Shown here: piece by piece, positions 9,693 to 38,169 of the stretch | Numbering within the stretch: position 1 is the stretch's first letter | How the letters are laid out: every line of letters starts with the position of its first letter | Origin: Lachnospiraceae bacterium | Lineage (GTDB): Bacteria > Bacillota > Clostridia > Lachnospirales > Lachnospiraceae | Length of the DNA stretch: 64,000 nt | Reading direction: 5' to 3' | Assembly (NCBI GenBank): GCA_024698145.1 | Contig: JAILRO010000044.1 | Location: 1-64,000 of the forward strand | The notes under the pieces: model-generated | The model's database searches: none | What the model was told of the DNA's origin: nothing | Seen by the model: the letters and a program-made list of their open reading frames with translations, nothing else | Translations under genes and position numbers: made by a program

Positions 9693-9698
9693 TATGTA

Positions 9699-10046
9699 AT
9701 GACTTGGTCGATAAGCCGGGTTATGTCGTTGAATGATCATCTATCTAGACCCGCTGTTACCAACGGGTTCGAGCAACCTACCCGAGAACGTGACGGGCAG
9801 CCACATGGTTCCCTATGCGGTCTTGCTTCGAGTGGGGTTTACAGAGCCTTGTCTGTTACCAGCCAAGCGGTGAGCTCTTACCTCGCCATTCCACCCTTAC
9901 CGGTCAAAGACTGGCGGTATATTTCTGTTGCACTTTCCTTAGAGTCGCCTCCACCGGACGTTATCCGGCACCCTGCCCTATGAAGCCCGGACTTTCCTCA
10001 CCTGCGGCGTTTCCGCTTCGCAGCCGCGATCATTTGGCCAAGTCAT
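9699..10046 (-). ncRNA. rnpB: RNase P RNA (class A type)
   Basis: Reverse strand contains GAGGAAAGTCCGGGCTTCATAGGGCAG...; terminal helix ATGACTTGG/CCAAGTCAT closes the ends; 3' region AAGCCGGGTTATGTCG in plus orientation. Confidence 0.95.
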
Positions 10047-37540: not shown

Positions 37541-38169
37541 TTGCTGTTTAATGTACTTTTTATATGTAACGGACGCGTATGGATTATCAGATACATGAAT
37601 ATCCTGTATCCAGGTGAAAGACGCTAAGAGTTTGTAAGTATGCCGACTACACTTTCTTATAATACGCGACCGGCTATGGATTCGACATCCTGTCTCAACA
37701 TGCCTTGCCTGACATCCATGTCAGGCATTCGCTTATGTACTCACGGCATACCAACAAACTCTAAGTGTCTTTCAGATGTCACAGGATATTACATGCACAG
37801 ATAATCCCACGCTGTTCCGTTCGTGTAGGAAAGTGAATCAAGTCAGCTGATGCGAGCCGAAGGCGAGTCGCGCACCACGTCCGTTTAGGGACATTTTTTG
37901 TGAAACTTCGAAACGTATATCAGGCGTCGAATTATGTTGCAGTATCCATAAGCAGGTCCTCTTTGACCGCCGGTAATTAGTGAGTACGTAGTACGATCTT
38001 AGTACCGTTGCGCTCAAAACGGGCGAAATCCCCTCTCTCTTAGCGAATGCAAAGCATGAGCTTAGAGACAGGGCATGCCTTGTGCTGCTTGCCTGCGTTG
38101 GAACTGCAATCATTAGAGACGCTTTAAAACAATTAGAAGTTTCGCTCGTAAAACTTAATTAAACAGCAA
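37541..38169. repeat. 629-bp structured intergenic element with 12-bp terminal inverted repeats; candidate ncRNA or non-autonomous mobile element
   Basis: Ends TTGCTGTTTAAT...ATTAAACAGCAA; two nested long-hairpin domains (about 37570-37825 and 37902-38143); left 70 nt has a ~91% identical inverted relative at 178-247; no convincing ORF. Confidence 0.85.

Follow-up and report, generated by a model that had tools for sequence, protein, structure and literature searches.

Among the described systems closest to the element analysed here, the Rfam family TwoAYGGAY (RF01731) is of type Cis-reg in that database and was graded as 'probably' RNA, though not cis-regulatory, by Weinberg et al. 2010 (PMC2864571). 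MITEs are short, non-coding, multicopy DNA elements with terminal inverted repeats, and the REP/BIME/REPIN repeats that accompany RAYT are extragenic DNA palindromes, often arranged as inverted pairs and mosaic in structure, of which the REPs measure 20-40 bp (PMC3733652). The attC sites of integrons provide an analogy for DNA whose fold is better conserved than its sequence (PMC8632094). An integrase recognises attC as one folded strand.

The element between leuS and prfC in the window (the whole 64,000-nucleotide stretch of Lachnospiraceae DNA that was analysed) resembles each of these systems in part. It matches the TwoAYGGAY sequence and structure model over the full length and above the gathering score, but the family is described as RNA, whereas here it forms a repeated DNA hairpin within a larger element and its pair statistics are not RNA-like. 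It shares with MITEs the small size, the lack of coding capacity, the copy number and the terminal inverted repeats, and one of its two units has target duplications in congeners; it departs from them in that the composite has no target duplication and no partner transposon was found, and in its ornate hairpins with a conserved core and its apparent in-place inversion. The present elements are also larger than REPs (about 200-790 bp), a Y1 transposase is absent from the five genomes searched, and in contrast to attC no strand preference is seen and no integron context was noticed. The element is probably a non-coding, transposon-derived foldback DNA repeat, made of two hairpin units between TTGCTGTTTA ends, that spread before its host species and a sister species split, has mostly stayed in place since and may be reworked by template switching.

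Between the last base of leuS (37539) and the first of prfC (38197), the 629-bp element (37541-38169) fills most of the intergenic interval, with a single base between the leuS stop codon and the element and 27 bp between the element and prfC. The gene-free location that the earlier note had described is thus borne out, and a second reading of the sequence confirmed the 12-bp terminal inverted repeats (TTGCTGTTTAAT at 37541-37552 and ATTAAACAGCAA at 38158-38169). The nested arms that it had drawn for domain 1 (37581-88/37800-07, 37601-07/37781-87, and a 31-nt arm at 37615-45 against 37744-74) and the 10-bp apical hairpin at 37706-27 are all present, as are the arms of domain 2 (37902-09/38136-43, 37922-28/38118-24, 37937-43/38103-09, and 37951-56/38092-96) and its hairpin with tandem G-A mismatches (38036-68). 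Two nested hairpins, unit 1 (TwoAYGGAY) and unit 2, make up the composite, which has the following features:

37541..38169, no strand assigned: composite foldback element, whole (63 genome matches; sharp ends beside unrelated flanks)
37541..37552, plus strand: left terminal inverted repeat, A-type end (28 exact genome copies against 1 for the reversed control)
37581..37807, no strand assigned: unit 1, long nested hairpin (folds of both strands)
37613..37776, minus strand: TwoAYGGAY core (RF01731) with two hairpin loops (88.5 bits, gathering score 43, full length)
37902..38143, no strand assigned: unit 2, nested hairpin and an independent MITE in congeneric genomes (comparison with congeners)
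38036..38068, plus strand: apical hairpin of unit 2 with tandem G-A mismatches (sequence and folds; recurs in relatives)
38158..38169, minus strand: right terminal inverted repeat, B-type end (sequence; junction comparison)

Folded as 629 nt, the plus strand reaches -239.8 kcal/mol (z = -15.95) and the minus strand -240.8 kcal/mol (z = -10.89), near-identical energies that no shuffled sequence equals, and with DNA parameters the element folds at z = -11.7. No terminator was detected, and a role as intrinsic terminator was rejected.

The Rfam search that the earlier note had proposed returned a described family, one of the outcomes it had named as refuting its reading: the core of unit 1 (37613-37776, minus strand) matches RF01731 with 88.5 bits (gathering score 43) at model positions 1-168 of 168. 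For domain 2, Rfam returns nothing, even with the threshold relaxed to E = 5. Contrary to the earlier note, part of the element thus falls within a described RNA family, but the base-pairing pattern of RF01731 itself, across 30 genera, looks like that of DNA. TwoAYGGAY is present in 45 out of 299 genomes of the bacterial family, often in multiple copies, and in 52 out of 399 genomes sampled across the phylum, where many of the matches are weaker. GTDB genomes contain at least 120 stretches with one exact core motif, and among the 80 matches listed nearly all bear a Lachnospiraceae title or a genus name (one is titled just 'bacterium'). The motif has no match in viral contigs and the element none in plasmids and phages, on which grounds a phage or plasmid origin was rejected. 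Across 30 genera the loop bases are conserved, and so are further unpaired positions of the core. At eight loci two TwoAYGGAY cores, the first on the minus and the second on the plus strand, lie about 190-330 bp from each other as an inverted pair, a layout that the window's unit 1 and unit 2 share.

A functional RNA helix tolerates one-sided changes to G-U but not to A-C, and on the other strand the two are swapped. Pairs were counted in a MAFFT alignment of 30 TwoAYGGAY sequences from 30 genomes that was not structure-fitted, in 90 TwoAYGGAY copies fitted to the covariance model and, as RNA control, in the RNase P RNA of the same 30 genomes. The window has its own RNase P RNA (class A, 9696-10045, minus strand, 312.7 bits), which served as RNA control. 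Among 902 pair cells of the first alignment, 9 are G-U (1.0%) and 17 are A-C (1.9%); the second alignment agrees, with 96% Watson-Crick pairs, 26 G-U (1.0%) and 30 A-C (1.1%) in 2695 cells. The RNase P control contains 280 G-U (10.6%) against 22 A-C (0.8%) in 2635 cells, a 12.7-fold ratio that differs from the 90-copy set with p = 7e-15. Covariation is very strong (29 out of 31 pairs changed on both sides, score 0.527 vs 0.140 shuffled), and TwoAYGGAY fails to show the G-U tolerance expected of a functional RNA. For unit 2 (23 copies, in a poorer alignment) the values are 3.1% G-U and 1.9% A-C, a weaker signal that is not RNA-like. We read the pairing as kept in the form of complementarity of duplex DNA, with neither strand preferred, and not as RNA.

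Outside the core the stems vary between copies and match within each copy. Arms in strain 28-4 reach 128 bp at 100% identity within a copy, and between copies the arms average 58% identity and the cores 87%; one copy of this strain (L330) has no long arms. An inverted target duplication as the source of copy-specific arms in genome G241 was rejected, homogenisation being simpler and no empty site being available for comparison.

The element query found 63 matches in the window's own genome (G000; 2.9 Mb in 71 contigs), where the foldback repeat is present in at least 30 copies; sampling was one genome per species, and many contigs end inside the repeat. The 12-bp terminal repeat has 28 exact copies in this genome (reversed control, 1), and 18 TwoAYGGAY matches lie above the cut-off. 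Copies end sharply at TTGCTGTTTA with unrelated sequence beyond, and two end types can be distinguished, A (TTGCTGTTTAATGCACTTTTAT) and B (TTGCTGTTTAGTTA...), of which the automatic junction list contains 33 and 29, respectively, about five of the B matches being judged chance. Dozens of copies adjoin many unrelated genes. Complete copies are mosaics of hairpin modules that range from 36 bp, barely more than the two ends, up to 791 bp (in the sister genome, G300), and no reading frame inside the element exceeds 127 codons (two G300 copies listed). The 36-bp minimal element, in which 12 bp separate TTGCTGTTTAAT from ATTAAACAGCAA, occupies corresponding positions in the two species (C27:18587-18622 in G000, contig C12 in G300).

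In the sister species, 12 out of 13 sites examined share at least one junction with G000, and together with one further G000 site 13 were compared for the end type that faces the same flank. The ends are exchanged at seven sites, kept at four and mixed at two, in a tally made by hand from the junction list in which one of the seven exchanged sites is placed by one end. Both genomes carry a complete element between leuS and prfC; the two flanks there match in the same orientation (85.5 and 87.1% identity), and the element matches in the opposite one. Aligned junctions thus show copies, including that of the window, that appear to have been inverted in place between the sister species. An assembly artefact seems unlikely to be behind the opposite orientations because junction reads should fix the end type. 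In ten other congeners the leuS-prfC interval is without the element. In some of the ten the interval contains a small gene or another hairpin: G305 has a different 403-bp interval that includes a hairpin with CCCATGGATGGC, and five others (G303, G306, G314, G316, and G317) have an insert of about 600 bp, not the repeat, with a small reading frame for a seemingly secreted protein. In G000 a single copy joins the pflB and pflA flanks, which in G300 lie at two separate copies with end types kept, as would be expected from homologous recombination between copies.

Both units also occur in other settings. Unit 2 was found alone in congeners, flanked by inverted repeats AGGTAATTGCGAAACTC, which match 36 to 71 times on each strand of a genome (0 to 2 times for the control). 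Its target duplication measures about 12 bp, in most cases 9 to 15 bp, and a score of at least 8 is reached by 59% of 34 elements, against 0.2% in the null. In G176, which belongs to another genus, TwoAYGGAY lies between ATTCGGGTGTCAAAAGGT repeats that are common to shorter elements, with 8- to 9-bp duplications (29% score at least 8, null 3.7%). The composite has a target duplication at 0 out of 21 sites in G000 and G300, with nothing convincing at any offset; its target flanks are biased to TAAA, and the flank composition gives the left terminal repeat a weak outward extension TAAA. No Y1 transposase (PF01797) was found in G000, G300, G176, G241 or G143, and mobilisation by RAYT/IS200 was rejected on this basis. 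No autonomous partner with the same ends was seen among the exact terminal repeat matches in the window's genome, and no recombinase beside copies among the part of the neighbouring genes examined. An autonomous element between distant unit-2 repeats was also rejected, the two intervals examined containing host-like genes only. Overall, the transposase search, the unit-2 intervals and the terminal repeat matches revealed no mobilising enzyme for the composite. Within literature that includes few subscription journals, nothing was found that joins MITEs, palindromes and Lachnospiraceae, or that links intergenic repeats and MITE with Rfam and DNA hairpins. Of the two interpretations in the earlier note, the palindromic mobile or foldback DNA is upheld by the multiple copies, the precise inverted-repeat ends, the element-free site in ten congeners and the MITE-like unit 2, and the large ncRNA is not.

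That ncRNA, or a cis-regulatory RNA, has the Rfam type, the published grading and the strong covariation in its favour, but G-U pairs are no commoner than A-C pairs (in RNase P from these genomes they are 12.7 times as common), the two strands fold equally, and dozens of copies lie at unrelated loci beside unrelated genes, in either orientation at one locus across sister species. A structured RNA is thus very improbable, and the large ncRNA was rejected on the pair statistics. The opposite orientations might instead reflect separate insertions into the same target sites, for which the TAAA bias indicates some site preference; with identical junctions in both genomes at about a dozen sites and an element-free leuS-prfC interval in other congeners, exact repeat hits at such a rate are unlikely, and this account is improbable. 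A more serious, if still doubtful, possibility is structure-specific mobile DNA, in which a transposase or recombinase recognises the folded TwoAYGGAY hairpin through its two YGGA loops, selection for the fold keeps the pairs strictly Watson-Crick and that enzyme also inverts copies by way of the terminal repeats. The unpaired loop bases conserved in 30 genera, the units inside elements with differing terminal repeats in differing genera, the inverted pairs of cores and the flips in place at shared sites all agree with it; the five genomes without a Y1 transposase, the examined part of the neighbouring genes without a recombinase and the pair counts without strand preference do not. That TwoAYGGAY is structured DNA, not RNA, and a widespread foldback repeat whose YGGA-loop core is read by a dedicated DNA-binding enzyme that spreads and flips copies is accordingly put forward only tentatively.

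Under the preferred reading as a transposon-derived foldback repeat, the composite would have spread in the lineage before the two species separated and been mostly stationary afterwards, the original spread perhaps depending on a transposase supplied in trans and since lost. During replication, a polymerase that switches template from one inverted repeat to the other may keep the arms complementary and flip the interior. Such switching is reported to homogenise arms and invert spacers (PMC8604942), so that one process could produce both the Watson-Crick-only covariation and the flips. The spacers in published template-switch inversions are very short, far below 600 bp, which counts against this step and leaves room for a recombinase. 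No RNA function or regulatory role at leuS-prfC is needed. Several points weigh against the foldback repeat explanation: the composite has no detectable target duplication (0/21), the searches turned up neither an enzyme nor an autonomous partner, unit 2 taken by itself gives a weaker pair signal, and homogenisation alone does not account for the conserved loop and unpaired core bases. GNA-type loops are unusually stable in DNA.

The analysis argues for dropping one Rfam 'RNA', TwoAYGGAY, from the likely regulators, and the comparison of G-U with A-C counts is a simple check for other orphan families known by covariation alone. The copies also make up a naturally occurring collection of long bacterial palindromes, their arms reaching 128 bp in strain 28-4, for tracing between sister species how arms are homogenised and copies inverted in place. 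In seven TwoAYGGAY copies from strain 28-4 and MAG S10_Bin3 the 5' arm is purine-rich (about 0.66-0.77), differs by copy and, over 90-128 bp, shows 94-100% complementarity with the 3' arm.
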